A DNA stretch of 22,348 nt from a virus: IMG/VR virus record IMGVR_UViG_3300023297_001499, positions 1 to 22,348 of that record. One strand, written 5' to 3'. The position numbers and the translations under genes are program-made. This document shows positions 1-16,759 of this stretch, in pieces. Each line of letters opens with the position of its first letter. Within the stretch, counting starts at the first letter, position 1. The notes under the pieces were generated by a model. It saw only the letters and a program-made list of their open reading frames with translations. It had not been told where the DNA came from and did not search any database.

Positions 1-161
1 CCGCGTCCACCGCCACGACCGCCGCCACGACCACCACCGCCAAGCACGCCGTCTGCGTTCTTCTTGATGCCATCGACATCCCCACGCATCTTACGGACGG
101 CCTGATCCCACTTGGCCATCCCCGGCTCTATTCCCAATATGACGGTTGCTTTACGGGCCAT
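1..161 (-). CDS. Tape measure protein, N-terminal fragment
   Basis: This is the first 53 codons of a gene that runs off the left edge. The ATG is at 161-159, one base after the TGA of the frameshifted chaperone product, with an AAAGAGAAG purine stretch as ribosome binding site. The visible protein starts MARKATVILG, continues through a charged probably helical stretch (residues 15-38), and then enters a glycine-arginine run of GGGR units (residues 41-53). The name rests on position: the gene directly after the G/GT tail chaperone pair in long-tailed phages is nearly always the tape measure, which sets tail length and is bound by the chaperone. The Gly-Arg linker so close to the N-terminus is unusual for the family. 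Only the order supports the call, as the body of the protein is not in the window. Confidence 0.7.
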   Translation of the reverse strand, partial: MARKATVILGIEPGMAKWDQAVRKMRGDVDGIKKNADGVLGGGGRGGGRGGGR

Positions 162-162: not shown

Positions 163-1178
163 TCAGCTTCTCTTTCGCGAGTTGTCCTTCACGTGCTCGT
201 AGTAGGAGTTGTAGAACACGTAGAGTTCTTGCGTGTCGTCACTCTCGACGAGTTCGGGCACGCGATCGGCGTAGGCCGATTCAGAAAGGGGTATGTTCCA
301 GAGTAGCCGTTCGGTGGCTATCCGCTCGATGATTTTGCCCGTCCACCAGGGGAGCGTTTCCTGCGCGAACCGGGCACCCGTGAGTTTGTCGTCGAACGGT
401 CCTGCGTAGCTTCCGGGGTATTCTCGGCAGGCCCGATCTGCATCACGGACCTGCCTTGCGAGTTTTTTATGTCTACCGGCTGAACGAGATCGACTTCCCG
501 AACCGCGGCCAATAGCGGGCTCCTTATGCCGTCCGGGAGCGATTGCACTTCGTCAATGTTCTCGAAGTAACGTGCTTCGTGGTTGTCGGCTTCGTGGACA
601 CCGTAGAAGATCCGGAAGTCGTCCTGCAAACCAAGCGTATCCCGCATGATCCCGAGTTTTACCGCAAACCGAAGCCCGGTCGCGACCAACTCCTCACGCG
701 TGATTGCAAGCAGCGATTCCCGTCGTTTGTCGGTGATCTCGCGCATTGCAGTCGCGATACGCTCCCGGTACTCGGCCTCGACTTTCTCGTAGGCGTCTTC
801 CGCCTTTGCCCGCGCCAATTCGGTGCTGCACCGACTCAAGTCGATCGGCATGAGCGCAGGCACGCGCTTCCGCGCCTGAGCCGTGATATCCCCCAGTTCG
901 AAGTTGAGGATCATGTTGACCAAGCTCTCGGTGCTCATGTCCATCAATTCGTTCTGGAGCGCGTCGTGCTTGGGTGTACCCAGGGCGTAATCCAAACGCG
1001 CCTGCTGCACCGCTTCGGCGTGGGCGTTATCGGCCTCGCGCATCTCCGGTGCACTCATCGTGCGCACCCATATCCGATCCGTTACTTCGTTACCGTCCGC
1101 GTCCCATGCGCTCACCGTGAACTCGCGCGCGCAGAGTTCCGCGGCGCTCTTGAAGCTGAGTAGTTTCTTTGTGCCCAT
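163..1178 (-). CDS. Tail assembly chaperone, -1 frameshift product (GT-like)
   Basis: Ribosomes that slip back one base at A AAA AAC (468-462) leave the short-form frame and read an uninterrupted frame from 462 to a TGA at 165-163. This adds 99 residues to the first 239, giving about 338. The added part starts LARQVRDADRACREYPGSY and contains WWTGKIIERIATERLLW and a tyrosine-rich end (ELYVFYNSYYEHV). It looks like a real folded domain, unlike the basic tail of the zero-frame product. The TGA lies one base before the tape measure ATG, so the extension fills what would otherwise be a 156-base gap. In lambda and many phages the T part binds the tail tube protein while G binds the tape measure. 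I checked the reading frame codon by codon from 462 to 163. Confidence 0.85.
318..1178 (-). CDS. Tail assembly chaperone, short form (G-like)
   Basis: A 286-residue protein between the tail tube and tape measure genes, the usual place of lambda gpG-type chaperones that coat the tape measure during tail assembly. The start ATG at 1178-1176 has a GGGAGG ribosome binding site 7 bases upstream. Residues 1-235 are mixed, charged and plausibly folded. The last 40 or so residues are Ser/Arg/Gly-rich and look like out-of-frame coding, which fits termination soon after a frameshift site at codons 237-239. It is larger than many G proteins (about 140 residues in lambda), but large versions exist in other phages. 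No catalytic motif is seen. The call rests on synteny and the frameshift site, not on sequence similarity. Confidence 0.75.
   Translation of the reverse strand: MGTKKLLSFKSAAELCAREFTVSAWDADGNEVTDRIWVRTMSAPEMREADNAHAEAVQQARLDYALGTPKHDALQNELMDMSTESLVNMILNFELGDITAQARKRVPALMPIDLSRCSTELARAKAEDAYEKVEAEYRERIATAMREITDKRRESLLAITREELVATGLRFAVKLGIMRDTLGLQDDFRIFYGVHEADNHEARYFENIDEVQSLPDGIRSPLLAAVREVDLVQPVDIKNSQGRSVMQIGPAENTPEATQDRSTTNSRVPGSRRKRSPGGRAKSSSG
426..468 (-). promoter_or_regulatory. Programmed -1 frameshift site with 3' hairpin
   Basis: The heptamer A AAA AAC occupies 468-462 in the correct phase (zero-frame codons ATA AAA AAC). After a 6-base spacer comes GGCAGGTCC (455-447), which pairs with GGGCCTGCC (434-426) to make a 9-bp stem with one G-U pair and a 12-base loop. 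Heptamer, spacing and stem all match the known pattern for efficient -1 frameshifting. A pseudoknot is possible but I did not identify one. Confidence 0.88.
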
Positions 1179-1226: not shown

Positions 1227-1276
1227 AAGGCGCCGCGTCTATCCGATGTGCCGGGCAAGCACAGACGCGGCGCCTT
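1227..1276 (-). terminator. Strong hairpin after tail tube gene, terminator-like
   Basis: A perfect 14-bp inverted repeat: AAGGCGCCGCGTCT (1276-1263 on the minus strand) pairs with AGACGCGGCGCCTT (1240-1227). The 22-base loop contains a further GTGC/GCAC stem. It lies in the 184-base gap between the tail tube stop (1363) and the chaperone start (1178). The arm is followed by only a short U-run (CCUUUAAU), so it may be a leaky terminator or an mRNA end stabiliser that lets tail tube mRNA exceed that of the chaperone and tape measure genes. The rest of the gap (1277-1362) holds only a minor CCGGC/GCCGG hairpin at 1301-1314; I see no promoter between the hairpin and 1178. Confidence 0.6.
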
Positions 1277-1362: not shown

Positions 1363-2463
1363 TTATGCGTAGCTCGCGACCGAGTTGATGAGAACGATCT
1401 CGCAGCTCTTGCCCTCGGTCGGGCACTTACGAGCCGTCCAACCGAAGTCGTATTCGAGGTTCCCGACCCGGTTCGTGTTCTCGTTGGTGTTGGCCTTGCA
1501 CGAGTACGCCGTAATTGACAGTTGGTTCTTGTGGGCACCCTGGATGGTGTCGCCCTCGAGAACCGATTCTAGCTTGAAGTAGTCGCCCGCCTTGAATGTT
1601 TCCCAGTAGCTTTCGTCGTCGAACAGGATCGTCGCCCTGCCCGACAACTGGAAGAGGTCAACGCGGTAGGTTCCCAGATCGAGTCCCGAACCGCCTGTGA
1701 ACAGACCCTCCAGACCGGGGAATGCGAACTCGAAGTTGATTGCCGTCAGCACTTCGACGTTCACATCGTCGATCTGCGGCGATGCCGTGAGTTGCTTGAA
1801 GTGCCACGGGGTTTCGTCGGCAACGACCGGCGATGCGGTCATTACGGCCGGGCGCTCTTCACTGAGATCGTTGGTCGTGCCCGACCCCTTGCTGCCGGCG
1901 TCGGTGCCCAGCCAGATGATGTTCTTGGCCACGAACTCCGGCGTTATCATCGCAGGCCCGTTGTTCGGCAGGTCGATCGGCAGCCTGCGGCATATTGCCC
2001 CTCTGATCAGCTTCGAGCGGGTAGCCGCGAAGATCGACTCGATCGAGTAAGGCACAGGCCAGGCCGTGCGGGCGTTGAGTCCCGGCGACCAGGTGTGTTG
2101 CCACACGTCGGTATCCGTGTCCCCGCCGGAACTGGATTCCAACTGTGAGCTCGTTGGCGTGCCGAAGATCATTGTGAGGAAGTGCCCGATAGACTCAGGG
2201 CCCGGGATCATCCGCAAAGACCCCTCGTTCATCGACCCGTGTTCGATGACACGCGTGATCTCTCGGTCGGCGCCCATATCATCCATCTGGGACTCGGCGT
2301 TGAAGCCGGCCTGAACCGACTCCTCTTTGATCGGGAAGAACGTGATTCCGTCGACCACTTTGTCCGGGTCGGAGCCGCTGGTTGGTGTCGTACCCCACGT
2401 AGCTTCGCGGACGAGGCCGACAATGCTTTCAGATCCGCTCAATGCCGGTGTAGTTACAGTCAT
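1363..2463 (-). CDS. Major tail (tail tube) protein
   Basis: A 366-residue protein starting MTVTTPALSGSES, with the ATG at 2463 behind an AAAGGAAG ribosome binding site. The early motif GLVREATWGTTPT resembles the N-terminal region of many phage tail tube proteins. The rest is rich in beta-prone and Gly/Ser/Thr segments, including GLEGLFTGGSGLDLGTYRVDL in the middle and a C-terminal part with TARKCPTEGKSCEIV. The protein polymerises into the tube through which DNA is ejected. It sits between the terminator-like and chaperone genes, the standard place. No sheath gene lies beside it. Hairpins flank it on both sides, in keeping with high expression. At 366 residues it is longer than simple tube proteins (about 150-250) and may carry an extra surface domain. 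Confidence 0.75.
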   Translation of the reverse strand: MTVTTPALSGSESIVGLVREATWGTTPTSGSDPDKVVDGITFFPIKEESVQAGFNAESQMDDMGADREITRVIEHGSMNEGSLRMIPGPESIGHFLTMIFGTPTSSQLESSSGGDTDTDVWQHTWSPGLNARTAWPVPYSIESIFAATRSKLIRGAICRRLPIDLPNNGPAMITPEFVAKNIIWLGTDAGSKGSGTTNDLSEERPAVMTASPVVADETPWHFKQLTASPQIDDVNVEVLTAINFEFAFPGLEGLFTGGSGLDLGTYRVDLFQLSGRATILFDDESYWETFKAGDYFKLESVLEGDTIQGAHKNQLSITAYSCKANTNENTNRVGNLEYDFGWTARKCPTEGKSCEIVLINSVASYA

Positions 2464-2499: not shown

Positions 2500-3693
2500 C
2501 TATTTCCTACGGTAGCGGCGTTCCAGTCGGAATCGCCTGTCAGTAAGGTTGATCGACGCCGATTGCTCGGGCGTCAGTTCTCGAGGTATCCCCCGAGTGA
2601 ATCCGCCGGCCTTGGTTGTCACCTTCGGCGAATTGCCCCGCCAAACAACGACATCGACCGGTTCGACCTCGACCCGCTCCCGTGGGTTCACTTCTTCCAG
2701 AAATGACTTGATCCGCATTGCCGTGCGCTGATACGTCCAGTCATTCGCCACTCTCTTGGCCGCGTGCTTGCCCATCTCCGCGAGTTTGGCATGATTATCG
2801 AACGCCCACCTCATGCAGTAGCGCAGGCTCGCAATGGAAGGGCGCGCGAAGTGCCCGTCAATGTTGTTGTGGTAGTTCGGGCAACCTTCCAGTCCGTCGA
2901 TCGCAACGCGCAGGCAATCCGTATCGAGATAGTCCCGGCACCCGCCCCAGTCAGTCACGATCGCAGGTGTGCCGCACGCCATCGCTTCAAGCGGCGTGAG
3001 TCCAAACCCTTCGCCCCGAGACGGCATCACGAAGCAGTCGAGGCTCTGATAGAACCCGCGCATCGTGTCGGTGTCCACCTGTGCGCGTCGGGCATCTATC
3101 CGAGCGTCCTTTATCTTGAGCAACGCGGGAAGCGCGTTCGATGTCTGCACCATCAATCGCACATTTTCGCTGCCCGTAAACTCTTCCTGAAACGCCCGGA
3201 TCAGCAGATCGTAGCCTTTTCGCGTGCTCGCGGAACCCGCATAGCCGAAGACAAACGTGTTGTCCGTCGGGTCTGCATCCCGTGTGCGTGGAGGGTAGTA
3301 GTCCGCGGTGTCGACGCCCAGCGGTATGACCACAATCGGCGCCTCGCACCCGGACGCTATCAGGCTGTCCCGACAGAACTCCGAGGGAACCCAAACCTGG
3401 TTGGCGCAGTTACACGCCGCGACCCACTCGCCTGGCCATCGGTCGGCTTCGAACATCGTGTAGAGAATCCGATACGGACTCGGCAATCGCTCCAGAAACG
3501 ACAGGCTGATCGCCGCGTAACCGATGCCGACAGCGCACTTCTCCGCCTTGTCACCACACGTTGTTACGTCATGCGGTACAACGTCGTTTTGCAGCAGGTG
3601 GCGAACGATGTTCCGTGAACTCGATCCATAACCGCAGAACGGATTGTCGACCCCGATCCACGCTACGTGGGATTTGCCATCTCGTTTGAACAT
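2500..3693 (-). CDS. GT4-family glycosyltransferase with C-terminal extension
   Basis: A 397-residue GT-B fold glycosyltransferase. I chose the ATG at 3693 (MFKRDGKSHVAWIG), four bases after the TGA start of the preceding stop codon and with a GGAGG site 9 bases upstream. Residues 10-30 hold the glycine-rich N-terminal loop (NPFCGYGSSSRN), 121-128 VVIPLGVD, 150-160 the Rossmann strand of the nucleotide-sugar domain, and 228-236 the EGFGLTPLE motif with both glutamates of the EX7E signature. GT4 enzymes move a sugar from an NDP-sugar with retention. Residues 335-397 form a Lys/Arg-rich tail that ends the protein after the GT fold and contains GGFTRGIPRELTPEQ, similar to the module at the N-terminus of the GT4 at 13649-14959. 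It lies between tail terminator-like and tail tube genes, where no such enzyme is expected. Donor and acceptor are unknown. Confidence 0.88.
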   Translation of the reverse strand: MFKRDGKSHVAWIGVDNPFCGYGSSSRNIVRHLLQNDVVPHDVTTCGDKAEKCAVGIGYAAISLSFLERLPSPYRILYTMFEADRWPGEWVAACNCANQVWVPSEFCRDSLIASGCEAPIVVIPLGVDTADYYPPRTRDADPTDNTFVFGYAGSASTRKGYDLLIRAFQEEFTGSENVRLMVQTSNALPALLKIKDARIDARRAQVDTDTMRGFYQSLDCFVMPSRGEGFGLTPLEAMACGTPAIVTDWGGCRDYLDTDCLRVAIDGLEGCPNYHNNIDGHFARPSIASLRYCMRWAFDNHAKLAEMGKHAAKRVANDWTYQRTAMRIKSFLEEVNPRERVEVEPVDVVVWRGNSPKVTTKAGGFTRGIPRELTPEQSASINLTDRRFRLERRYRRK

Positions 3694-3694
3694 A

Positions 3695-4201
3695 TCACAA
3701 TGCCTCCGTTGCAATACTGACATCGCAACTCCAGAGCAGCTTGAAGTGCACGACCGTCCGATTGGTGTCTACGTCTGGTATGAACTCAGCTATCGGTTCC
3801 GCTGATTCGTCGTCGTCCGAGTAGTCCCAGCCGAACCGCCCCGCGCCCCACACGCCGTCGTCGGACGGGTAGTTGGCAAGCACTCGCTGGACGTTATTGC
3901 ATAGATTGGTGGCTTCGTCGAACGCCGCTTCCTGCGTGGTCTGCTCGGACGCCCCGGAGATCAGGAACATCAACCGTTCCTGCCGTCTCAGCCCCCCAGC
4001 CATATCAACAACCAGCCCCGCGCGCTGAAGCCGCACAAACACCATTGGCTTGTCGAGCATCGACGTGGGCATGAATTGGCCCTTGTGTATTCCGCGCAGT
4101 TCAACGCGCGTCAGATTCTCCGAGAGCGCATCGCCGACACCGCTTTCGGCATCGAGTATCGCGATAAGCCGATCCGTGACGGTCTTGTATTCCGTGCTCA
4201 T
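3695..4201 (-). CDS. Tail terminator / tail completion protein (lambda gpU-like by position)
   Basis: A 168-residue protein, MSTEYKTVTDRLIAILD, whose start overlaps the preceding stop as ATGA. A GGGAG site lies 6-7 bases upstream. The N-terminal helix with DRLIAILDAE, a middle with VFVRLQRAG and later a strand-rich half ending in VVHFKLLWSCDV fit the alpha/beta pattern of tail terminator proteins, which cap the tail tube and join it to the neck. Size (130-170) and gene order (adaptor, closure, gp10-like, terminator, tube) match. I did not recognise a diagnostic motif, so the call depends mainly on order. Confidence 0.55.
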   Translation of the reverse strand: MSTEYKTVTDRLIAILDAESGVGDALSENLTRVELRGIHKGQFMPTSMLDKPMVFVRLQRAGLVVDMAGGLRRQERLMFLISGASEQTTQEAAFDEATNLCNNVQRVLANYPSDDGVWGAGRFGWDYSDDDESAEPIAEFIPDVDTNRTVVHFKLLWSCDVSIATEAL

Positions 4202-4707: not shown

Positions 4708-5058
4708 CTAAATGAACGACTCCGTTTTTCTGATGCACAGATAACGTTCGGCCACTATCACGTTGTTCAACATCGGCGTGGACACCCGACGCACTATCCA
4801 GCTTTCGCCGGTTGTATTCACCTTGATTGTGCCACCCGCGACCATCACCCCTCCGGGAGAGGCTTCGAAGACAGCCCACGGCAACACGACCTCATCGGAA
4901 TAATCATCGCCCAGCGCGGTCTTGATCTGCTCGGGCGTCAGATCCTTAACCGAAAGCGTTTCCGTCCATTCGATCTCGCCGTTGCCAAGCGCGCATTCGC
5001 TGCCGAACTCCTCGCGCAACGCGTTCAATTCAGTTCTCAGGTCCGTTCCTATGCCCAT
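4708..5058 (-). CDS. Probable head closure (stopper) protein
   Basis: A 116-residue protein, MGIGTDLRTELNALREEFG. I chose the ATG at 5058, which overlaps the end of the PEP-CTERM gene by 10 bases; upstream codons in this frame lie inside that gene. A weak GTGGAAACG is the only binding site, so coupling is likely. After an N-terminal helix the protein is strand-rich, with VMVAGGTIKVNTTGESWIV and a terminal VIVAERYLCIRK. Size and position between adaptor and gp10-like genes fit a head-closure protein that plugs the portal after packaging. No firm family motif is visible; call by order only. Confidence 0.45.
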   Translation of the reverse strand: MGIGTDLRTELNALREEFGSECALGNGEIEWTETLSVKDLTPEQIKTALGDDYSDEVVLPWAVFEASPGGVMVAGGTIKVNTTGESWIVRRVSTPMLNNVIVAERYLCIRKTESFI

Positions 5059-5633
5059 CGTTTCCACGCACCGCACATCGCCGCAATACAGACCAGCAGA
5101 ACGGACATCGACGCCGGTTCCGGCACTGCAAGCGGGATCACCATAATGTTGTCGAGATACAGTCTGTCGTCCGCATCGTTCCAACAACCGACGTAGAGAG
5201 TTCCGTAGTCAGCAGTTTCGATATAGGCGGTGTAACCGGACCACGTGTCGTTGGGAGGCACCGTAAACTCGGCGAAGAACCCGGCAACTTCGTAGTAGAG
5301 GCTACTGGCCTGCTGCCCGTGTCCCGCGGCCATGGCGTAGATATCATAGGCGCCTGGCGGCAACACACAATCGTGCCAGATGTAGGTCGCCACGCGCGAG
5401 CTGCTGACAGCATCGCAAGTGATTACATACTGGCCGTCGACTCCCGCATTCCCCACAACGTCTATCGCCCACGCCGCGGGGATCACTTCCCAGTCCGGCA
5501 CGCAGACCGCGTTATGCCAACCCAGAGGCGCCAGGTATTCCCCGTGTTCCTCGAAGCTGCCGTTGACATCAAACGCAAAAGCCCCCGTGCTCAACACAAG
5601 AACCGCCATCACTAAAGCTACGAATCGTATCAT
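5049..5633 (-). CDS. Exported PEP-CTERM protein with signal peptide
   Basis: A 194-residue protein starting at the ATG at 5633, two bases after the adaptor stop and behind GGAGGAG. Residues 1-20 (MIRFVALVMAVLVLSTGAFA) are a clear signal peptide ending in A-x-A. The mature part begins with VNGSFEE, typical of galactose-binding-like or DUF642-like beta-sandwich exported proteins, and contains four cysteines. At the end comes VPEPASMS (170-177), a hydrophobic helix (178-189) and basic KRWA: the PEP-CTERM signal that exosortase recognises for sorting to the cell surface or extracellular polymer. Such proteins are normally chromosomal. Here it sits between adaptor and closure genes, tightly coupled to both. 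It is more likely a moron acting on the host surface than a virion part. Family of the mature domain is uncertain; the sorting signal is strong. Confidence 0.82.
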   Translation of the reverse strand: MIRFVALVMAVLVLSTGAFAFDVNGSFEEHGEYLAPLGWHNAVCVPDWEVIPAAWAIDVVGNAGVDGQYVITCDAVSSSRVATYIWHDCVLPPGAYDIYAMAAGHGQQASSLYYEVAGFFAEFTVPPNDTWSGYTAYIETADYGTLYVGCWNDADDRLYLDNIMVIPLAVPEPASMSVLLVCIAAMCGAWKRWA

Positions 5634-5635
5634 GC

Positions 5636-6352
5636 TCAACTCCTCCCCGCCGCCGCATAGCCGGCGTTGCATTTACCGATGAACCGGTCGCGCTGTTCGC
5701 GCCCGCGCTTTCTCCACACACCTATCTGCGAACCGAGATCCCGTTCGTATTCAGGGGTCTTGATCCGCACCGCCTGGCTCGATTTAGCCAACTCGTTCAC
5801 GACCCGCTCGGCCGCGCACGATTCCACGAGATCTAGGAAGATGTCGCGGTCTGTCGTCTTGACTTCCGTCACTGCCGACAGAACCTTGGTGTAGAGTATG
5901 TAGACCGTATCGCCGGCGGTTTCGGGCGTAGGGTTGAGGTAGACGTCGCCGCCCTCGATGTCGCGTTGATAGGCGTCCCCGCCGTAGTTCGCGCTCCAGG
6001 CAGATCCCTTGATGCTCTCAATGATTGCCTGTGACGGCAGGTGCCAGTAGCCGGCTTCTTGTGGAACACCAAGTGTCGCCAGTGTCCGCGCCAACGTCCA
6101 TTCGTCGCCGGACTGGTAGGGGCTCCAGAGCACGAGTATCGCCATCATTCCCGCGGAGTCCCCGATCTCCGACCAGGTATACTTCTGCTGGTTTGCGATC
6201 GTCTCGAATGTCCTGTCGGCGACCAGCGGCCGATAGCGCGAGTATTCGGTAAGAACCTCGGAGATGAGGCTCGTCAGTGCATCATCATCAAGTTCAGACG
6301 TGCTTATCCCGCGCGCTCGTATTCCGGTTATGTAGCTTGCAACATCAGCCAT
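5636..6352 (-). CDS. Head-tail adaptor (connector) protein
   Basis: A 238-residue protein, MADVASYITGIRARG, with an AGAGG site before the ATG at 6352. The N-terminal half has LDDDALTSLISEVLTEYSRYRP, the helical 'x..al..AL..Y' pattern of adaptor proteins (gp6/gp15-like); then a strand segment with QQKYTW; then GDVYLNPTPETAGDTVYILYTK; then a helical C-terminus with FLDLVESCAAERVVNEL. Adaptor proteins bind under the portal ring. The N-terminal and DIFLDLVE...AAERVVNELA helices resemble those of other adaptors. It is the first of the five neck/tail joint genes in order and is followed two bases later by the PEP-CTERM gene. Position and layout give moderate support. Confidence 0.6.
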   Translation of the reverse strand: MADVASYITGIRARGISTSELDDDALTSLISEVLTEYSRYRPLVADRTFETIANQQKYTWSEIGDSAGMMAILVLWSPYQSGDEWTLARTLATLGVPQEAGYWHLPSQAIIESIKGSAWSANYGGDAYQRDIEGGDVYLNPTPETAGDTVYILYTKVLSAVTEVKTTDRDIFLDLVESCAAERVVNELAKSSQAVRIKTPEYERDLGSQIGVWRKRGREQRDRFIGKCNAGYAAAGRS

Positions 6353-6360
6353 TTCAACCT

Positions 6361-6723
6361 CTACGGATTATGACGATAGGGAAGCAGGTCGACTCGATCG
6401 GAGGCGCCGCCTGACTGTGCCGATCCGGACGAATCGGTGAGCAGCAGGTGCAGATAGGGCGTTGTGCCGCTGGACGGATCGATCCAGAGTTCTTCGTCCC
6501 CGCCGGCAGTGAGGAATCCCTCGGGCTTGAATGTGGCCAGTGTCGTCCCGCCGGCAGCCGCCGTTTCATCCAGCCGGAAATACAGCCGATAGGTGGAATT
6601 GGTGAGCGGGTCGAACTGAATCCTGATCATGCGCTTCCCTGAAACGTCGGTATCAACATGATTGACGCCGCTCAGAGCCACAGGGTCGATCGCGGTATCC
6701 TTGAATAGTTTGTCTGTTGCCAT
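6361..6723 (-). CDS. Small beta-rich protein of unknown function
   Basis: A 120-residue protein starting MATDKLFKDTAIDP, 14 bases after the glycosyltransferase stop with GGAG 9-10 bases upstream. Strand-forming segments (RMIRIQFDP, YRLYFRLDE, LHLLLTDSS) alternate with Gly/Ser/Thr loops; no cysteine, signal peptide or membrane segment. It could be a capsid decoration protein or head fibre base, since such genes often stand between the capsid and adaptor genes, but I recognise no motif. Confidence 0.55.
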   Translation of the reverse strand: MATDKLFKDTAIDPVALSGVNHVDTDVSGKRMIRIQFDPLTNSTYRLYFRLDETAAAGGTTLATFKPEGFLTAGGDEELWIDPSSGTTPYLHLLLTDSSGSAQSGGASDRVDLLPYRHNP

Positions 6724-6737
6724 GGCGTTTGTCTCCG

Positions 6738-8384
6738 TTACTGGATTTTCAAGTTGAAGCGTGGGGCGCGAAACCCCTGCAACATTGCTTCCATGCGAGA
6801 CTGGTAGGTGAACTTATGGGCAAGAGCGTAAGCGGCATCTGCCTTTGCATTCAACTCGTCGGGATGGGACAGATAGTGACGGATCTTCTCTGCCGCTTCG
6901 TCAGCGCTGCCATACCACTCGACTTCACCGTTGAACGAACTGAGAGCACGGCGGTTGTCAATCAGAAGCAGGGCGCGATAGGCGGCTTCAACGTATCCGC
7001 GATTGACGCTGCCCGGCAAAATCGCTGGGAACCCTCCGCAATCCTCTTCCGTGCGATGAGATAACAGGATTATGCGAGACGCCATCCCAATGCGCGCAGT
7101 GGCTTCAGCATCAATAGTCGGAAACACGGTCGCGTCTCGAATGCGCTGTTTGTCCCAGGTGTCTCCAACGAGGGCCAGCCTTACATTCGGCAACTGTGCC
7201 CTAATTTGCCGGATCAGTTCCACTCTGCTCGGGTAGGGATAACCCACAAGGCATATATCATGCGTCTTCTCCGGCCGATTATCCCGACATAGCGCGTGCA
7301 CTGCGTTTGTTATGGACAGGCAGTTCCAGAGGTAGACTCGATCAGGGTCGCGGAAAACGTTCCTGTAGAACTTGTAAGCATTGGCGTCGTTGGTTACGAT
7401 CCAATCGAGCAGATCCAGCGCGTCGGCATTGGGAATCAATGCCTGCGGGTCTTCGATTAACAACCCGGCAATCGGTGCGCCTGTTGTCTCTCTGATTTGC
7501 CGGATCTGATTCCTGCTCCATCGAAAAAGCGGACCCAACAACAAAACTATCTCGGGCTGATGGTCTACAACTTCAACGAAAGGAATCGAACTTAGACCAT
7601 CGCGCACTCCGTCGGCCACTTGCTGCTGACTGACCGTCAGTTCCGGATGCGCAGGGACACTAATCTGCACGCGCATCTTTGGCGACTGCTGCTTGTCCTT
7701 TATCATCTGCGCGCACTCAAGCATCTTCAGTTCCATGCTTCGGAGCATTCGCTTCCCGGAATGCCAACGGTACCACGAAAGCGGCCTGTTCAAGAAACGA
7801 GCGGCACCCACACCGAGAATGCCGAAGAATCGAACGGTGTAATCCCAGTCTTCCTGGCTGACCATCCGCTCGTCGAAGTAACCGACCTTCTCAAGCGTTT
7901 CTCTGCGATACACGATCTCGCCACTGTCGATGAAGTTGTCCTTTCTCAGTGTGCGGATCTGGATCGGGTTCGGGATGTGTATCCCGGTATGGTCGCCAAA
8001 GTTCCTGCTACCCGATACGACGGCATACAACGCGGAGTCAGACTCAAAACAACGGATGGCTTCTTCGCAGAACGTGTCGCACTTGCGGTTGTCGTCATCA
8101 AGGGTGGCCCAGTAGCGCCCGTTCATCACATCAAGAGCTTCGTTCCAACATGCGGCTATGTTGTCGACGTTGCGGTCGTGGTAGATGACCCGAATCCGCG
8201 AGTCCTTTTCCGCTTCTCGGCAGATTCTTCGGGCCTCATTGTCGGGATCGCTGTTCTCGACAATGATGATTTCCCAGTCATCAATAGTCTGCTTGAAGAT
8301 GGAATCCAACGCTTCGGTCAGATACTTCGGCCTGTTATGACTGACAACTATGATTGAAACCGAGCACTGTCGTTCTTCCGGCAT
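6738..8384 (-). CDS. Two-domain glycosyltransferase (GT2 plus CgeB-like GT-B)
   Basis: A 548-residue fusion. Residues 1-225 are a GT-A fold GT2 domain: SVSIIVVSHNRPKYL at the N-terminus, VEN acidic site, LDDDN (95-99) as the DXD metal/nucleotide-binding motif and SQEDWDY (176-182) as the general base region. Residues 235-548 resemble the CgeB/spore-maturation glycosyltransferase group: VLLLGPLFRWS, a Rossmann VGYPYPSRVELIRQIR, and a C-terminal half with GYVEAAYRALLLIDNRR, EVEWYGSADEAAEKIRHYL and a closing HKFTYQSRMEAML, the Glyco_trans_1_2 pattern. Two active domains suggest that two sugars are added in sequence, as seen in polysaccharide or S-layer glycan loci. The ATG is 6 bases after the second radical SAM gene, behind GAGAGGG. 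Confidence 0.85.
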   Translation of the reverse strand: MPEERQCSVSIIVVSHNRPKYLTEALDSIFKQTIDDWEIIIVENSDPDNEARRICREAEKDSRIRVIYHDRNVDNIAACWNEALDVMNGRYWATLDDDNRKCDTFCEEAIRCFESDSALYAVVSGSRNFGDHTGIHIPNPIQIRTLRKDNFIDSGEIVYRRETLEKVGYFDERMVSQEDWDYTVRFFGILGVGAARFLNRPLSWYRWHSGKRMLRSMELKMLECAQMIKDKQQSPKMRVQISVPAHPELTVSQQQVADGVRDGLSSIPFVEVVDHQPEIVLLLGPLFRWSRNQIRQIRETTGAPIAGLLIEDPQALIPNADALDLLDWIVTNDANAYKFYRNVFRDPDRVYLWNCLSITNAVHALCRDNRPEKTHDICLVGYPYPSRVELIRQIRAQLPNVRLALVGDTWDKQRIRDATVFPTIDAEATARIGMASRIILLSHRTEEDCGGFPAILPGSVNRGYVEAAYRALLLIDNRRALSSFNGEVEWYGSADEAAEKIRHYLSHPDELNAKADAAYALAHKFTYQSRMEAMLQGFRAPRFNLKIQ

Positions 8385-8390
8385 ACGCGC

Positions 8391-9704
8391 CTACCCTCTC
8401 CCTCTATATTCTCTCAGTGGCGAGGTGTAGTTGGCACACCAATCAGCCGCCCGGCTGAATACATACTCGTAGTCCACGCCCTTGATCTTGCGATCGTAAG
8501 GATAGGGGCCGACCCCGTAATGACCATCCGGGGCGCCGACATCCGTAGCCCAGTAGTTATTCGCGCGAACCCAGTCATAGAGGTGCGCGCCCGGATACGA
8601 GGTGTAGACCGACCGCGCGTGGTATTCCGGCTTGATCTCGGCCAGCATTCGTTCTGTAGCATCCAGATCGGCCGTAGTCTCGGTCGGCAGTCCGATGATG
8701 TAGTTGCCGAAAATGTTGACATCGCTTGCGTGCAAGAGAGCGCTCGCTTCGATGTTCTGCTCGACCGTTGTGCCCTTTTTTAGAAAGTCGAGCATTCGTT
8801 GGGAACCGGACTCCAGTCCAAGACTGACCCACGTGAACCCAATTTCTGCCATCTCGGGGATCAGTTCGCCAAGACGCAGGATGTTGTCTGCCCGCAACTG
8901 ACACCAGAACGGTATTCGCGGAAGTCGTTCTTTCCACAACTCGACGAACTCTTGCATCCAGCGCCGCGACCCGAATAGATCATCGTGGATCATCAGGCTG
9001 CCGATGCCGCCCGGACGCGAGTTGAGCAGACATATTTCCTCAATGACGTGCTTGGCACTGCGTATCCGCACACGCTTCCCAGAGATCAATTCTCTGCTCG
9101 GAGCGCAGAACGTGCACTTCCCCGGGCATCCTCTGCCTGCCACCAGAGTCACGAACGGTTCGGGAAGCAGGGGAAGGATAGGGGACGTCTCTTCCATTCG
9201 TGGATTAAAGAAGCCCCGGTCCACAAACGGCAATGAGTCGAGATCTTCCACGGCTTTCAATTCGTAGACGGTTTCCAGAGATCCGCCGGCGTCAATGGTA
9301 TTGGCGATATCGAGTATCCGCTCCTCGCCCTCGCCCCACACGATGCAGTCGATGTTCGGGTATTCCCGCGCTTGAGTCACCGATAGGTGGATGCCGCCAC
9401 CAATGAGCGGTTTGTTCGGCGCGCATCGCTTGACGATCTCAGCAGCACGCCGTGCGTGAGCATCATCACACGTAAGCCAACTCATCATGCTCCAGTCGTA
9501 GTCGGCTTTCTTGACCACATCCTCGAATTGATCCCAACTGGAGAACGATCGCAAGTCCACCAAGAACGGGTCATGCCCCGCGCGCTTCAAGACGGCGGAC
9601 AGCATAGCAAACCCGTGATTGATGTAAGTAGAATCACTGCCGCCGTGCTCGTTGTATGACGACCAGCCGCTCATCAATGCGGGGTAAACACAGAGTATCC
9701 TCAC
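8391..9704 (-). CDS. Radical SAM enzyme with B12-binding-like N-terminus (BchE-like)
   Basis: A 437-residue protein. I chose a GTG start at 9704-9702, which overlaps the upstream TGA as GTGA and has AGAGG 7 bases before it; longer reading in this frame lies inside the previous gene. Residues 1-140 follow the cobalamin-binding layout of B12 radical SAM proteins (RILCVYPAL, GFAMLSAVLKRAGH, PLIGGGIHLS, VWGEGE). GRGCPGKCTFCA (190-201) has the CxxxCxxC cluster that binds 4Fe-4S and SAM, at C193, C197 and C200. Later SLGLESGSQRMLDFLKKG and GNYIIGLPTET are typical of the barrel. Members often methylate or rearrange sugars, lipids or tetrapyrroles. The substrate is unknown; neighbours suggest a glycan or lipid-linked sugar. 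Confidence 0.88.
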   Translation of the reverse strand: MRILCVYPALMSGWSSYNEHGGSDSTYINHGFAMLSAVLKRAGHDPFLVDLRSFSSWDQFEDVVKKADYDWSMMSWLTCDDAHARRAAEIVKRCAPNKPLIGGGIHLSVTQAREYPNIDCIVWGEGEERILDIANTIDAGGSLETVYELKAVEDLDSLPFVDRGFFNPRMEETSPILPLLPEPFVTLVAGRGCPGKCTFCAPSRELISGKRVRIRSAKHVIEEICLLNSRPGGIGSLMIHDDLFGSRRWMQEFVELWKERLPRIPFWCQLRADNILRLGELIPEMAEIGFTWVSLGLESGSQRMLDFLKKGTTVEQNIEASALLHASDVNIFGNYIIGLPTETTADLDATERMLAEIKPEYHARSVYTSYPGAHLYDWVRANNYWATDVGAPDGHYGVGPYPYDRKIKGVDYEYVFSRAADWCANYTSPLREYRGRG

Positions 9705-11167
9705 GGTGACACCTCTTTGGCCTGCCTGTCCGATGTGATCTGCTGCCATGTCGCCGCGCCAGAACCAGCAGCGACAGGAGGAGGGTCTGCCAGGATCTCT
9801 TGCAGCAACCCCACCATCAGTATGCCGGTCGTGCCCTTGAACGAGTGAGACGGCGCATGCTTGTCTCGATATGCCGGCCACATTCGGTTGAATGCCAGCA
9901 TGATCGCGCGGACTTGAAGATCGTCCGGCAGAATGACGGTTGGCTGCTTGATCTTGAGGTCTGTGCCCTCGATCTCCGTCACGCACCAGCCGAACTCGTG
10001 CGCTGATTCGTAGAGAGGAGCGCCGCGGTAAGGCATCGTGTAGGGTTCCACCGATATAGTCGCGCCCATCCGCGCCCACTCAAGAACAGCACTCACGTTT
10101 TCCTGCAAGTCGGCAACGGTCGCGCTCGGTGCGAACAGGATGATGAGCAGATATGGCGTGATCCTGTTGTCCTCGCACCACCAGATGATATCGGGTATGC
10201 GCGCCAGGTCTTGCGGCTTATTGAAGCTCGCCAGCACATTCTTGCTTGCGTTCTCGATCCCCAGCGTCAGATGCCTTGCGCCGCCCCGGGCCAGCGTGCG
10301 AACCAGATCCAAGTCAACCCTTGAACTATGGGTCTGCACGAGGTAGGACAACCCGAGTGACGCCGACTTCTCGCAGAAGTGTTCGACCCGTTCTCGAGAG
10401 TGGCAGAAATCATCTTCGCAGAAGTATATCGTCTCGGTTTCCGGCACCTCGCGCTTCACGCGTGCACACAGACTCAATAGCTGCTCGGCATTTAGCATCG
10501 CAGGCTTCGTCAGGCGCCCAACGGCCAATCGCTGCCACTGAGTCACGCTGCAAAACGCACATCCGCGGTTACAGTGCGTGCTCGTAACGAGACGGACGGT
10601 CCGTATATCCCGGTAGTTGGGCTTCGCATACAATCTGGCGGTCTGTTGCCAGTAGTCTTCGTAGCCCATAACGGAGAAGTCGAGTTGTTCGTAGAAGTCC
10701 CAAAGATCGGAGTTGAGCGTCGGGTTATTCCACCGTCGGTAGATGATTCCTGGTATATCCTCCGGCGCCTCTCCCTGCACAATGCCGGCAAGTGCACGTT
10801 CGCCCGTCCCCAACACGACCCACTGCACTGGTGACTTGTCAAGGATCTCCTGGTAGTTCAGGGTCGCTTCCACGCCGCCGACAACCAAGTCGGCGCCGGG
10901 GTTGGCGCGGCTGGCCTGGTTTATCAGCGCAATGTCCGACGCCAGTGTTTCCGAAAGAGGCGAGAACCCGATAGTCGTGCGGTGTTCGAATAGATCGTCG
11001 CCCGGCATGCCATCCTTGCAGGGATCGTGCACGTCTACTCGTATACCGGGTATTTCTGCGCGAAGCCACGCCGCGAGCCTGTGCAACCCGATGTGTGGCG
11101 CGCTCCAGTTCGCAACCGAACTTGTCTTCTTGCTGGGGCCGACCAAAAGGACGTTATGAGGACACAT
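9701..11167 (-). CDS. Radical SAM enzyme with B12-binding-like N-terminus
   Basis: A 488-residue protein with the ATG at 11167, overlapping the end of the GT2 gene by 14 bases. Residues 1-130 have the layout of a cobalamin-binding domain (HNVLLVGPSKK, IGLHRLAAWLR, LVVGGVEATLN, VLGTGE), though no DxHxxG motif is seen. THCNRGCAFCSV (197-208) holds the CxxxCxxC cluster (C199, C203, C206). HLTLGIENASKNVL and LLIILFAPSAT are typical later barrel segments. It is distinct from the next gene (8391-9704), not a simple duplicate: spacing and motifs differ. Two adjacent enzymes of this class suggest two steps of sugar or lipid modification. B12 dependence would make this pathway rely on the host's cofactor supply. 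Confidence 0.87.
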   Translation of the reverse strand: MCPHNVLLVGPSKKTSSVANWSAPHIGLHRLAAWLRAEIPGIRVDVHDPCKDGMPGDDLFEHRTTIGFSPLSETLASDIALINQASRANPGADLVVGGVEATLNYQEILDKSPVQWVVLGTGERALAGIVQGEAPEDIPGIIYRRWNNPTLNSDLWDFYEQLDFSVMGYEDYWQQTARLYAKPNYRDIRTVRLVTSTHCNRGCAFCSVTQWQRLAVGRLTKPAMLNAEQLLSLCARVKREVPETETIYFCEDDFCHSRERVEHFCEKSASLGLSYLVQTHSSRVDLDLVRTLARGGARHLTLGIENASKNVLASFNKPQDLARIPDIIWWCEDNRITPYLLIILFAPSATVADLQENVSAVLEWARMGATISVEPYTMPYRGAPLYESAHEFGWCVTEIEGTDLKIKQPTVILPDDLQVRAIMLAFNRMWPAYRDKHAPSHSFKGTTGILMVGLLQEILADPPPVAAGSGAATWQQITSDRQAKEVSP

Positions 11168-12668
11168 GATAACGCACCCCCAGAAGTTCGCTTGCGCCTC
11201 TGACGACAGCTTCGGCCTTGTCTATGACCGTATCCGCATCGCCGACCACTGTCACGGGCGAGCCAGTCAGAGACACGATCTCGTAATCTTCGGGTGCGCG
11301 TTGACGCCGAACGGCGGCTTGTCCAAGGAACGAGGCTGCCTCATTGTCATCCTCGGTGCAAGCCAGATAATACGCCCGCTTTGCCTGTATCGGACCGGCG
11401 ACTCCAACAGTCTCCCATCCGGTTGCTACGAGGGTGTCGGCCCTCTGCAATCTGTCTATCCGCCCGGAACCAAACAGAGCGTCCGTGGGCGGAGTACGCC
11501 CTTCGAACGTGTGCACGGTAGTCTTCTGGCCGCAGGACACCAGCCGGTTGGCGATCAACATTACCAGCCTGCATCGCTCGGAATCATCATAGCGTGGTAA
11601 TAGGAACCTGACGGTTTCTTCAGCACACCGATCAACGACGTCGCCCCAGCGTTCACGGAACACCCCTTCGCCCTTTGTCGTTTCTGTTTGAGCCCACGCA
11701 GCAGTGCGCGCAGATGACTTCCGCACCCCGTTGTCGATGTGCGTCACGACACAACCCGGAACATACCAGACTTCCCAGCCATGCAGCATCGCACGGAAAC
11801 AGAAATCGGTGTCCTCGTTCCCGAAGACGTATGCCGTATCAAAGCCCCGCAGTTCCTCATACACGGAACGACGAAGCGCAAACACCGCGCCCGTCACGGC
11901 CGGGACCAGTTCGTAATCGCCCGCATCCACAGCAGATAGTTCAGCACGCTTGTAGCGATGAATCCCACAGGAACCCTTCGGGAACTCCAACCCTACGTGC
12001 TGGATCTTTCCATCCGGGTAGAGCAGTTTGGCTCCCGCGACCCCACATTGAGGCCGTAATTGCATCCAACTCATCAACGCCGTCAGCCACCCGGCATCGC
12101 ACACCTCGCAATCTTGATTGAAAAGCACGTAGTGGCTCGCATCTGCACACTCGATCCCCCGGTTGACCGCAGCGGCAAAGCCCATCCGCTTGTCCAGTCT
12201 CAATACTCTGCCTGGCGCGTCTTTCAGGAGGGCTCGTGTGGCATCGTTGGTGCTGCCATTGTCCACCCACACGAAGACGACGTTGCCCGCGTAGGATGTC
12301 TTTCTGAGCCCGTCGATACATCTACTTAACAGATCCGGGCAGTTATAAACAGGAACGACGACAGCGACAGAAGGCCAAGTGCCCACATTCCGGTAAGCTA
12401 CGCTCCGCGCTGGAATGCGATAACCGTAGGCCAGTCCCCCGCAACGAACCTCTGTGTCACTCTGGCAACCTGTCTGATAGCCGGCATTGTCCGCAATCAG
12501 CCGTTCGGCCAAACTCGACGGAATCGGCGTGTATTGATCGGCCGGCAGCGTATAGACCCCGTGCACCTGTGTTCGCCCGGTCATGTTCAACACAGGAACC
12601 ATTGCCTCGGTTGCCGTTGGCTGCTTTGCCTTGCGCATCCTACTACGCCTTCGAATCGCGTTTACCAT
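11154..12668 (-). CDS. GT2 glycosyltransferase with N-terminal module and C-terminal Rossmann-like domain
   Basis: A 504-residue protein whose ATG overlaps the stop of the Rmd-like gene as TGATG. A basic start (1-22) precedes the module at 23-67 (MVPVLNMTGRTQVHG then ...LAERL). Residues 98-345 are a GT-A domain: SVAVVVPVYN, WVDNGSTND, FNQDCEV (183-189; the DXD equivalent), GFDTAYVFGNEDTDFCFRA (275-293, with the conserved E-D). This layout is that of rhamnosyltransferase-like GT2 enzymes. Residues 365-504 carry another alpha/beta segment with ADTLVATGWETVGVAG and AKRAYYLACTEDD, similar to the N-terminal Rossmann half of WsaF-like rhamnosyltransferases. The donor half seems missing, so this may bind the acceptor. 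With the Rmd-like gene beside it, a D-rhamnose donor is plausible but not shown. Confidence 0.85.
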   Translation of the reverse strand: MVNAIRRRSRMRKAKQPTATEAMVPVLNMTGRTQVHGVYTLPADQYTPIPSSLAERLIADNAGYQTGCQSDTEVRCGGLAYGYRIPARSVAYRNVGTWPSVAVVVPVYNCPDLLSRCIDGLRKTSYAGNVVFVWVDNGSTNDATRALLKDAPGRVLRLDKRMGFAAAVNRGIECADASHYVLFNQDCEVCDAGWLTALMSWMQLRPQCGVAGAKLLYPDGKIQHVGLEFPKGSCGIHRYKRAELSAVDAGDYELVPAVTGAVFALRRSVYEELRGFDTAYVFGNEDTDFCFRAMLHGWEVWYVPGCVVTHIDNGVRKSSARTAAWAQTETTKGEGVFRERWGDVVDRCAEETVRFLLPRYDDSERCRLVMLIANRLVSCGQKTTVHTFEGRTPPTDALFGSGRIDRLQRADTLVATGWETVGVAGPIQAKRAYYLACTEDDNEAASFLGQAAVRRQRAPEDYEIVSLTGSPVTVVGDADTVIDKAEAVVRGASELLGVRYHVSS

Positions 12669-13648
12669 CAGTCTCGATCGACCTCCGTAATCTGCCAGCC
12701 GACCATTTCTTTGATCGTGTCCTCGATCTTAAATCGCGGTTCCCAGTCGATTGCAATGCGGAGTTTCGAGGCATCGCCGATAAGCGTGGGGACATCGGAC
12801 GGCCGCATCTTGTCCGCGTCACGATTGATCTTGGCTTCTGGGATCGAAGCGCACTCTGATGCAATCGTCACGATTCGGCTGATCGGGCAACCCTTGCCAC
12901 TACAGATGTTAAACACATCGCCGTTCTTGATAACGCCCTCGTTATGCGCCTCCACGAGAAGTCGGTAGGCACGAACGGTGTCCCTGACATCTGTATAATC
13001 CCGAACCGCTCCCGTGTTGCCAAGGGAATACTGCTCTCGCTTCCCGAGCACTATTTCCGCGGTCTGACGCGCAATTGCCGCTTCGACGAAAGCCAACCCA
13101 CGACCCACGCCCGTATGATTAAACGCTCGCGTCCGCACAACACTCATGCCGAACGACTGCGCATACTGATAACCCAACAGATCCGCCGCGATTTTCGAGA
13201 CGCCATAGGGCGACCTCGGTCGAAGCGGGTTGGATTCGGTAATCGGGATCTCCGCCTCGTGCACCAGCCCGTATTCCTCGCTGGAACCGCACACGTGCAC
13301 AACGCAGTCGGGCACGTGCCGCTTCGCCATCTCCAACACGTTCAGTGTGCCGTTCAGGTTAGTACGTAGTGTCGCTTCCGGCTCGTGCCAACTGGCCGGG
13401 ACAAACGACTGAGCCGCCAGATTGAAGATCGCATCCGGTTGCGACTCTAGGATCGTCGCCGATACACTGAGCACGTCCGTCACATCGCCCGGGATGCAAT
13501 GGACGCCCTTGCGCTTCAGTCGATCGACAACTGCATCGTTCGACCGCACCCGCGTTAGCGCGCAGACCTGATAATCGCCGGAGTTCAGTAGTTCGTCAAT
13601 GAGGTATTGCCCTACAAACCCGGTCGCTCCCGTTACAAGAACCCGCAT
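12668..13648 (-). CDS. rmd: GDP-6-deoxy-D-mannose reductase-like (Rmd-type SDR)
   Basis: A 326-residue extended SDR enzyme. Start ATG at 13648 directly follows the upstream TAG, with GGGAGGGG behind it. GATGFVG (7-13) binds NAD(P); NLAAQS is the usual following strand; CGSSEEYG and YGVSK carry the Ser and Tyr-x3-Lys of the active site; RAFNHTGVGRG and RPSDVPTLIGDASKL near the C-terminus are particularly close to Rmd, more so than to Gmd. Rmd reduces GDP-4-keto-6-deoxy-D-mannose to GDP-D-rhamnose. Its substrate must come from Gmd, which is not in this window, so host or another phage region would supply it. A related 4,6-dehydratase or epimerase activity cannot be ruled out. Both neighbours are glycosyltransferases joined to it by coupled starts. 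Confidence 0.82.
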   Translation of the reverse strand: MRVLVTGATGFVGQYLIDELLNSGDYQVCALTRVRSNDAVVDRLKRKGVHCIPGDVTDVLSVSATILESQPDAIFNLAAQSFVPASWHEPEATLRTNLNGTLNVLEMAKRHVPDCVVHVCGSSEEYGLVHEAEIPITESNPLRPRSPYGVSKIAADLLGYQYAQSFGMSVVRTRAFNHTGVGRGLAFVEAAIARQTAEIVLGKREQYSLGNTGAVRDYTDVRDTVRAYRLLVEAHNEGVIKNGDVFNICSGKGCPISRIVTIASECASIPEAKINRDADKMRPSDVPTLIGDASKLRIAIDWEPRFKIEDTIKEMVGWQITEVDRD

Positions 13649-14959
13649 CTATGCCCCTCCCGCATCATTCATCACGACCCGCAACAGCGACTCGCACGTT
13701 CGTTTGACTGTCCACTGCTCGCGCACCCACTTCGCCGCGGCAAGCCCAGTCTTTCGCGCGCTCTCCCTCTTCTCGTAAACCTGCCGATAGCGGGCAACCA
13801 GTTCATCGAAGTTGGGCTCCCACCAGTTTCCGACATCGCCCCAGTCTGGGGGGTAGCCGCCTTTGGAAACGTGCGGCACTTTCGTTTCGAAGCACGACAC
13901 CGGATAGTTGTAGCGCGGGTCGCAATACTCGCTCATCCCGGAGTTGTTGCTCACGATCACCGGCAGGCCCGTGGACATTGCCTGCAACGGTGTCAGTCCG
14001 AACCCCTCGCCGCGCGAGGGGAACACGAACGCGTCGGCGTCGTGCATCCACTGCACCATCTGCGCGGGCGTCGATTCCTCGGCCACAAATCGAATCCGAT
14101 CATCGGACGGCAGGCGTTTGTTCCAGTCCCAGAACCCGCCCGAAGTCTGTTCACCCCGTGTCTTCAACACGAATCGCACGTCCGGATACTGCGCACGTGG
14201 AAACGCGGCTACAAATGCCCTTGCCGCTCCCACGGGGTTCTTGCGATGCGTGAGTCCGGCCGCCATCAGGAACGTGAAATATGGCCGATACTCCGTTCGC
14301 TTGAGTTCCGGAACCGGCCACTTGTCGGGATCTACGCCCAGACACACGACATCGATTGGGGTAGTAACCCCCTGCCTCTCGAACGCCTCTTTGTTCTGGC
14401 GACACGGCACGATTATCCGCCGGCACTTGTTCATCTCGATCGACCATGCCGCCGGGGGCGTGGTAGTCTCGAACATCGTCAGTCCGATCCCGCGCAGGAA
14501 CGGATGATGGTGGATGTCCCGAGGCCAGGTCATGTTGATTCCGTAGCAGCACTCGGGCTGTTGCGGTCGGCGCAGGCATTCGACGATCGCTTTCGGCACG
14601 AACGCTCTCTCGCTCCATTGGTCGAGAGGAATCCCGCCGAACTGCGGCTTGCCGGGGTCGTAGTCTCGCGTGTAGATCGAGAGATTGACGCCGGATTCGA
14701 TCAGAGTCCGCGCGATCTCCTGCGCAACACTGCCGTAGCCGTCACAGTAGTGGAACGGACTGCTCCACCCAAGAAATATGTGTCCGCCGTCTTCCAGGAA
14801 CAGAAAGTCCTCGGCCAGATCGTTGCTGTCGATGCGGTAGTCGGGATTTGTCGCCAACTGCCGCGCCAACGCTCGCGGGACTTCCGTCCATTCGCCCGGC
14901 CGCAGGTAGTGATGCCCAAACACCTGCGGGACACGAGTAAGGTTCAAAACCGGTATCAT
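13649..14959 (-). CDS. GT4-family glycosyltransferase with N-terminal module
   Basis: A 436-residue protein, ATG at 14959 behind GGGAG. Residues 1-44 are the module (MIPVLNLTRVPQVFG, LRPGEWTEVPRALARQL). The GT-B fold follows: GWSSPFHYCDGYGSVAQ (64-80), IDVVCLGVDPDKWP (202-215), a donor-domain Rossmann start at 228-240, and EGFGLTPLQ (318-326). The EX7E motif has Gln at 326 where the family normally has Glu; the related enzyme at 2500-3693 keeps both glutamates. The fold is clear, but activity may be reduced or changed. It opens the accessory cassette right after the capsid gene, separated from it by two hairpins, and the module at its start matches those in proteins just upstream of the capsid gene. 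Confidence 0.86.
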   Translation of the reverse strand: MIPVLNLTRVPQVFGHHYLRPGEWTEVPRALARQLATNPDYRIDSNDLAEDFLFLEDGGHIFLGWSSPFHYCDGYGSVAQEIARTLIESGVNLSIYTRDYDPGKPQFGGIPLDQWSERAFVPKAIVECLRRPQQPECCYGINMTWPRDIHHHPFLRGIGLTMFETTTPPAAWSIEMNKCRRIIVPCRQNKEAFERQGVTTPIDVVCLGVDPDKWPVPELKRTEYRPYFTFLMAAGLTHRKNPVGAARAFVAAFPRAQYPDVRFVLKTRGEQTSGGFWDWNKRLPSDDRIRFVAEESTPAQMVQWMHDADAFVFPSRGEGFGLTPLQAMSTGLPVIVSNNSGMSEYCDPRYNYPVSCFETKVPHVSKGGYPPDWGDVGNWWEPNFDELVARYRQVYEKRESARKTGLAAAKWVREQWTVKRTCESLLRVVMNDAGGA

Positions 14960-14984
14960 GTGCTCCCGTATGCCTCATGCAATC

Positions 14985-15018
14985 GGCGGAGGAACGACTC
15001 GGATGCCATCCCTCCGCC
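14985..15018 (-). other. Hairpin in capsid/glycosyltransferase gap (distal)
   Basis: GGCGGAGG and CCTCCGCC pair perfectly (8 bp) around an 18-base loop that itself contains a GGAT/ATCC element. It lies 25 bases upstream of the GT4 start at 14959, in the 90-base gap after the capsid gene. No U-run follows, so a rho-independent terminator is not indicated. It may pause transcription, stabilise capsid mRNA or affect translation of the glycosyltransferase. Confidence 0.5.
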
Positions 15019-15037
15019 AGTGTTAGTTATCGTAGTT

Positions 15038-15058
15038 GATCCGTCTGTTCTACGGATC
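15038..15058 (-). other. Hairpin across capsid stop codon
   Basis: GATCCGT and ACGGATC form a perfect 7-bp stem with a 7-base loop; the 5' arm and loop hold the capsid TAG stop (15052-15050). The following bases are not U-rich. It is the first of two hairpins between the capsid gene and the accessory cassette; both together may lower read-through into it. Confidence 0.5.
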
Positions 15059-16759
15059 TGAGCCGGCCACACCAGGCTGCATCGTGACGGTCGCGAAATA
15101 CTTACCGTCAAGCATCTGATGCGCGACCTCGCTCTGGAGGGATTGCTCGACATCCTGTGTGCCGGGGTCGATCCAGATCGGAGTCACGAACAGACCGAGA
15201 TACGGCGCAATGACGTAGCCCGTCTGCGGCCACTGCTTACCCTTGGCGCCGACCAGCAAGGTGTTTGTCTGGAGGCTGTCCCACCAGCCGACCTTGACCA
15301 GCCGCTCGCCAGTGCTCAGAGAACCGGCGATGTCGATTCCCTCGGCGACTCGCCCCTGGCCATCGCCCTTGTAGTCGCCGGCGGCCTGAGCCAGCCAAAC
15401 GATGCGATCGATCGAATCCGGGTCACCGATGATCCACACCGTGTCCGCGAACCTCGACTTGTAGATCAGGTTGCGGGCTTTCTTGATGTGGGTGATGATC
15501 TGCTTCTGCCACTGCTCGCCGTCGTAGTTCCCGGTAGCGGGCGGCAGAGTGCCGTAGTTGACGTTGCCGGCGGTCGCGCCGCTGACCATCTCCGCGAGAA
15601 TGTTGTAGTTCCATTCCCGCGCAACCTGGTCGGCGCACGCGGAGATCATCGTGCCGGTGCCGTCGATGCCGAAGTCGGAGTGCAGGTGCCGCATCACCTC
15701 GACCGACAGGTCGTAACCGAGCTTTTTGATGAGGCAGGTGACATTGGTCGAAGTCAAGCTGCCCTTGAGCCGCTTGATCTCTTCCTTCTCACCCGGGTCG
15801 TTGGCATACGAGCCAGTGAAGTTCGCGACGGCCGACATATCGGCGTCGTCCTCGTCGGTGATCTTCCAGTGGTAGACGCGGCCGGTCGACTGCTTCAACG
15901 GCTGAAGCGTTCCGAGTTGGGTCGCGATCAACTGCGGGAAGATGTCGACCATCAGCGGCATCACATACGGGATCGCCGCCGCGACGTCGCCGGTCGTGGT
16001 GGCGCCGGTGGGAATCGCCTGTCCCCTCGCGCCCTGCCGCAGCACGGACATCCGGTCGCGGCTGAACTGCTCGGCATCCTCGACTCTCTTCATCATGCCG
16101 TTGCGCATCATCAGCCACGCATCGGCCAGTTCCGGCTTCTCCTTGACGAAGTTCTGGAGCATGATCCGCATGCACAGACGCGTGTCGGAGAAGTCGGGAA
16201 GAGCGCCGGGCACCCACGAGCTATTCCCCTCGTGCAGTATTCCGCGTTCGGTCGCCGACTGGATCAATTCCTCGACGGCCGCTTCGTAACTCTGCGGGGC
16301 GTCCACCGAAGTACCGTCGTCCTTGTACTCCGGGGTATACATCCCCTTGCTCGCAAGGCGAGCGTGACTATCGAGGAACGGCTGTATCGACTGCCGCAGC
16401 GCCGGCATCACCGCCTCGATCCCCTCGTCCGTAGCGCACATGTTCTGCAACATCGTCCGAGCGGAGTCACTGAACTGCTCGGGCAGTTCCTTGTCCGTTA
16501 CCATCTGCGCGATCCGTGCGCTCACAGCGGCGTTGCGCTTCTGAACCAGTTCACGCGACGCGTCTCTGTCGATGATCGCCTGCGCCTGCGCCGTTACTCC
16601 ACGGGCCTGATCGAGCACTGCCCGATCATCGTCCGTCAGTCCCGCGGGCGCCGCCACGGGCGCCGCCTGCGGCAATACCTGCGGTGGCGTCGCCGTTCCA
16701 TCCGGGCCGCCGCCATCGACATCGGCGTTCTGCTTGTTTGTGACCTCATCGGGGTCCAT
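15050..16759 (-). CDS. Internal-start product: scaffold plus major capsid
   Basis: An in-frame ATG at 16759 (residue 378 of the fusion, MDPDEVTNKQ) has AAAGGAGA 5-6 bases upstream, as good as any gene start in the window. Translation from it would give 569 residues: a Pro/Ala/Gly-rich start, a helical scaffold-like region (to about residue 240 of this product) and the HK97-fold capsid domain. This would allow many capsid copies per protease copy, a problem a plain fusion does not solve. Internal scaffold starts are known in lambda (C/Nu3), where both products end together. No experimental evidence is available here. Confidence 0.65.
   Translation of the reverse strand: MDPDEVTNKQNADVDGGGPDGTATPPQVLPQAAPVAAPAGLTDDDRAVLDQARGVTAQAQAIIDRDASRELVQKRNAAVSARIAQMVTDKELPEQFSDSARTMLQNMCATDEGIEAVMPALRQSIQPFLDSHARLASKGMYTPEYKDDGTSVDAPQSYEAAVEELIQSATERGILHEGNSSWVPGALPDFSDTRLCMRIMLQNFVKEKPELADAWLMMRNGMMKRVEDAEQFSRDRMSVLRQGARGQAIPTGATTTGDVAAAIPYVMPLMVDIFPQLIATQLGTLQPLKQSTGRVYHWKITDEDDADMSAVANFTGSYANDPGEKEEIKRLKGSLTSTNVTCLIKKLGYDLSVEVMRHLHSDFGIDGTGTMISACADQVAREWNYNILAEMVSGATAGNVNYGTLPPATGNYDGEQWQKQIITHIKKARNLIYKSRFADTVWIIGDPDSIDRIVWLAQAAGDYKGDGQGRVAEGIDIAGSLSTGERLVKVGWWDSLQTNTLLVGAKGKQWPQTGYVIAPYLGLFVTPIWIDPGTQDVEQSLQSEVAHQMLDGKYFATVTMQPGVAGSDP

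Follow-up and report, generated by a model that had tools for sequence, protein, structure and literature searches.

A likely programmed -1 frameshift in a candidate tail assembly chaperone gene of a divergent uncultured phage

The tail gene locus

The window, by which we mean the whole stretch of DNA analysed here, is a 22,348-base virus contig whose minus strand carries the identified structural genes. Near one end lies an ORF of 286 codons (1178 to 318), preceded by a Shine-Dalgarno-like GGGAGG at 1191-1186. The gene upstream is confirmed as a tail tube gene, and the gene downstream, which opens with the ATG at 161-159, is presumed from its first codons to encode the tape-measure protein. 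By comparison with lambda, the place after the tail tube gene and before the presumed tape-measure gene is the usual one for a G/GT-type tail assembly chaperone gene. The features of the locus are as follows:

1363-2463, minus strand: tail tube protein gene, upstream neighbour (PF18906, E 1.3e-14; phrog_290, E 1.4e-15)
1227-1276, minus strand: strong terminator-like hairpin in the 184-nt gap between the tail tube and candidate chaperone genes, followed by only a short T tract
318-1178, minus strand: zero-frame ORF, 286 aa, candidate G-type tail assembly chaperone (residues 1-239 common to the predicted fusion, 240-286 zero-frame only)
462-468, minus strand: slippery heptamer A AAA AAC, in phase, the only copy of AAAAAAC in the window
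426-455, minus strand: predicted stimulatory hairpin of 10 bp (455-446 / 435-426) with a 10-nt loop, -20.4 kcal/mol
318-461, minus strand: zero-frame tail of 47 codons, Ser/Arg/Gly-rich, with codon usage resembling non-coding sequence
163-462, minus strand: -1 frame extension of 99 aa plus TGA, a putative T-like domain, identified by the -1 reading and codon usage
1-161, minus strand: start of the presumed tape-measure gene, assigned by position only and running off the window

An initial annotation of this DNA had described a tightly packed operon, which is only partly true, as the 184-nt gap lies ahead of the ORF at 1178-318; the strong hairpin in this gap (1276-1227) is absent from the terminator scan listing. 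The further statement that the -1 frame ends one base before the tape-measure ATG is accurate as to spacing, with the single base 162 separating the TGA at 165-163 from the ATG, and presumptive as to the gene, of which only the first codons (fewer than 54) lie inside the window.

The chaperone identity is suggested by position and architecture. Neither half of the putative fusion gave a significant match to a known tail chaperone in Pfam, PHROGs, NCBIfam, or the PDB, and no homologue of the chaperone or the extension was found in the phage, plasmid, and IMG/VR searches. The matches to the extension that did appear in the phages and plasmids collections were set aside as chance (E above 1). Single-sequence structure models of the two halves were of low confidence (pLDDT 60 and 49) and returned no significant fold match.

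Slippery site, hairpin, and reading frames

An in-phase heptamer of the form X XXY YYZ lies late in the short ORF, where ATA AAA AAC (Ile-Lys-Asn) forms codons 237-239 of the 286 (GACATAAAAAACTCGCAAGGCAGGTCC), and the in-phase A AAA AAC that had been annotated at 468-462 is thus confirmed. About one AAAAAAC is expected by chance anywhere in the window, and therefore the presence of the heptamer alone is not evidence of frameshifting. Across the genes there are eight in-phase X XXY YYZ sites, only one of which is A AAA AAC; the others, such as A AAA AAG at 8781, are followed by weaker downstream structure, and no second canonical in-phase heptamer was found within the chaperone gene. In E. coli, A_AAA_AAC shifts less readily than A_AAA_AAG (PMC5009743), which counts against a frameshift here.

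A downstream stimulatory structure is common, although not universal, in shifts of the lambda G/GT type, and at this site a hairpin begins after a spacer of 6 nt (461-456). Its location and spacing agree with the initial annotation, which had given the stem as 9 bp; the stem is one pair longer, perfect over 10 bp with one G-U. The folding energy of the 40 nt downstream ranks 29th among 7118 codon positions of the genes, and a perfect stem of equal strength at a spacing of 5-8 nt occurs at 4 of 7074, placing the hairpin among the top 0.06-0.4% of codon positions. The folding z-score in a 71-nt context is only -1.16, a modest value attributable to the GC-rich region. We also looked for a pseudoknot through pairing between the loop and downstream sequence and found none of 5 bp or more.

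Translation bears out the earlier report of a -1 frame that is open from 462 to the TGA at 165-163 and encodes 99 residues. This openness had also been offered as support for a frameshift; it is real, and weak by itself, because -1 runs of 100-196 codons occur in other genes of this GC-rich phage, and we rejected it as stand-alone evidence. Codon usage gives strong evidence. Using a codon model trained on the remaining genes, and 1038 48-codon windows of other genes for comparison, we found that past the heptamer the per-codon score is -0.144 in the zero frame and +0.109 in the -1 frame, against a true-frame mean of 0.173 and an out-of-frame maximum of 0.057 in the comparison set. Such a reversal of frames was seen in none of the 1038 comparison windows. 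Between 462 and 318, the -1 frame outscores every out-of-frame comparison window (0 of 1038 as high), and the low score of the zero frame is equalled by just 2 of the 1038 windows read in their true frame (bottom 0.2%). In addition, the 50 codons past the zero-frame stop are coding-like in the -1 frame only. By this model, the coding signal shifts to the -1 frame after the heptamer. The codon statistics locate the change imprecisely, somewhere from the heptamer to about 60 nt past it: the maximum-likelihood change point falls at 399, ~60 nt beyond the heptamer, and 462 is worse by 4.2 log units. A change point at 399 rather than 462 counts against a frameshift at the heptamer.

Interpretation as a programmed frameshift

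We consider it highly probable that these features together represent a programmed -1 ribosomal frameshift in a phage tail assembly chaperone gene of the lambda G/GT type. This interpretation, proposed in the initial annotation, is supported by the codon switch, by the canonical arrangement of heptamer, spacer, and hairpin, and by the tail tube neighbour (PF18906, phrog_290). Most ribosomes would stay in the zero frame across A AAA AAC, yielding the 286-aa short protein. We infer that slippage occurs and that its rate is low, in that a minority of ribosomes would stall at the hairpin 6 nt downstream with the heptamer in their decoding sites, slip one base back along the A-run, and produce a 338-aa fusion (239 shared and 99 new residues) ending just before the presumed tape-measure start. 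Judging from gene order and the lambda precedent, we expect the short form to coat the tape-measure protein and the 99 added residues to bring in tail-tube subunits.

The tape-measure protein is the binding partner of G in lambda, and the tail subunit that of the T part of GT; the shift occurs at a low level, and frameshifts of this kind show wide conservation among long-tailed phages (PMC5009743, citing Xu, Hendrix and Duda 2004 for the lambda G/GT frameshift). The locus described here shares with lambda a -1 shift late in the gene (predicted here), a position between the major tail or tube gene and the tape-measure gene (the latter presumed here), and a short form with a minor extended form (predicted here). 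It differs from lambda in the zero-frame tail of 47 codons on its short form and in that the gene is without detectable sequence homology.

Other phages offer parallels for the site itself. The annotated chaperone frameshift of Acinetobacter phage Loki (gp12/gp13; LN890663; PMC5313236) uses the same in-phase A AAA AAC, followed by a hairpin of -18.1 kcal/mol that is comparable to the -20.4 kcal/mol found here, and phage Loki has an annotated terminator between its major tail and chaperone genes, at a place like that of the strong hairpin at 1276-1227. However, the zero-frame stop of phage Loki (TAA) directly follows the heptamer, whereas here the zero frame runs on for 47 codons, a long tail by that comparison that counts against the frameshift reading. 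Phage Loki also has an extra gene between the chaperone and tape-measure genes, while the extension in the window ends at the presumed tape-measure start. In Caulobacter phages of the phiCbK group, the gp93/gp94 chaperone pair ahead of the tape-measure gene likewise has an AAAAAAC slippery sequence (PMC3556154), although these are different phages, and the chaperone in the window is without a detectable match in the phages collection. AAAAAAC is possibly also the site in Paenibacillus phage Dragolir (PMC6003738).

The same arrangement could arise in other ways, each of which we regard as improbable. The best of these is that one continuous gene of about 338 residues has been split by a mistake in assembly or sequencing, or by a recent indel that inactivated it. 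A single metagenome contig provides the sequence, its A6 run and a C4 run (418-415) are error-prone, and the change point is slightly better at 399. Relatives were sought in IMG/VR with the chaperone, extension, tail tube, terminase, portal, adaptor, and a small structural protein; portal and terminase alignments were searched against genome contigs, and the tail tube and portal against the phages collection. Terminase and portal relatives were found, and none was found to carry the chaperone gene or tail region; the related contigs stop before the tail genes. Two contigs from other records (IMGVR_UViG_3300023435_000020 and IMGVR_UViG_3300031227_010065) match the window at 100% identity across at least 14.5 and at least 11 kb (within 7818-22348), and both end ahead of the chaperone region; a distant relative with 37-60% identity in the shared structural genes ends at the neck genes, and a fourth contig ends shortly past the capsid gene. 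Against an error or indel stands the location of the break, at the sole in-phase A AAA AAC of the window and beside a hairpin, at 6 nt, of the rare strength described above, in a gene position where such frameshifts are expected.

Less probable still is transcriptional slippage, in which RNA polymerase would insert an additional A while transcribing the A6 run and so generate mRNAs for the same fusion without a ribosomal slip. A six-A run would give the identical product, but the in-phase layout of the heptamer and the spaced hairpin would be left unexplained, and known runs that support transcriptional slippage are usually longer than A6. That the downstream stretch is a small gene translated independently is hardly credible: the -1 frame does stay open beyond the zero-frame stop, and its codon usage there is good, but it contains no ATG, GTG, or TTG ahead of the GTG at 261, so that a separate gene would not cover the extension, and the coding signal begins far upstream of that codon.

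Taken as a programmed ribosomal frameshift, the element is ordinary and of a well-understood kind, a fresh and clean example of a familiar phage device that extends a known rule and changes none; the initial annotation was right to caution that chaperone frameshifts are well known. What it adds is the precise position of a tail chaperone frameshift, together with its complete product, in a divergent uncultured phage lineage, for which simple gene calling would list just a short protein ending in a nonsense-like tail and overlook 99 coding residues. There is an outside chance that the pair forms a protein family without recognisable relatives, in a thinly sampled phage lineage, and that the 47-residue Ser/Arg/Gly-rich tail equips the short form for a role of its own in addition to that of lambda gpG.

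Other genes in the window

Between the capsid and tail genes, the minus strand carries four glycosyltransferases and an NDP-sugar dehydratase/epimerase (2500-3723, 6738-8384, 11154-12668, 13649-14959, and 12668-13648), perhaps a cassette for modification of virion or host glycans; in a related contig (G003), the glycosyltransferase/epimerase set is partly different. Among the glycosyltransferases, within the phage structural operon, are two adjoining B12-binding radical SAM genes (HpnJ/BchE-like; 8391-9755 and 9701-11167, minus strand).

Close to the start of glycosyltransferases, and also in three small ORFs that lie upstream of the capsid gene, we found a stretch of ~45 residues with loose similarity (N-L-T-x-x-x-Q-x-x-G-x-x-x-L-x-P ... 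P-x-x-L-A). It was located in the following ORFs:

11154-12668, 13649-14959, 17907-18482, 18202-18828, and 18701-19177, minus strand of the window: ~45-residue stretch
5532-7967 and 8812-10131 of L005: ~45-residue stretch

The invariant positions are just one G and one L, and the stretch is possibly a shared binding module, which we offer as a lead. Between the terminase and portal genes, the ORF at 20671-21387 (minus strand) contains a sigma-70 region 2 domain (E 1.4e-7) and is a candidate phage sigma factor. Finally, the ORF at 5049-5672 (minus strand) encodes a protein that looks secreted and carries at its C-terminus a PEP-CTERM-like sorting signal (E 0.0027, narrowly below the curated cut-off), which hints at a host with an exosortase system.
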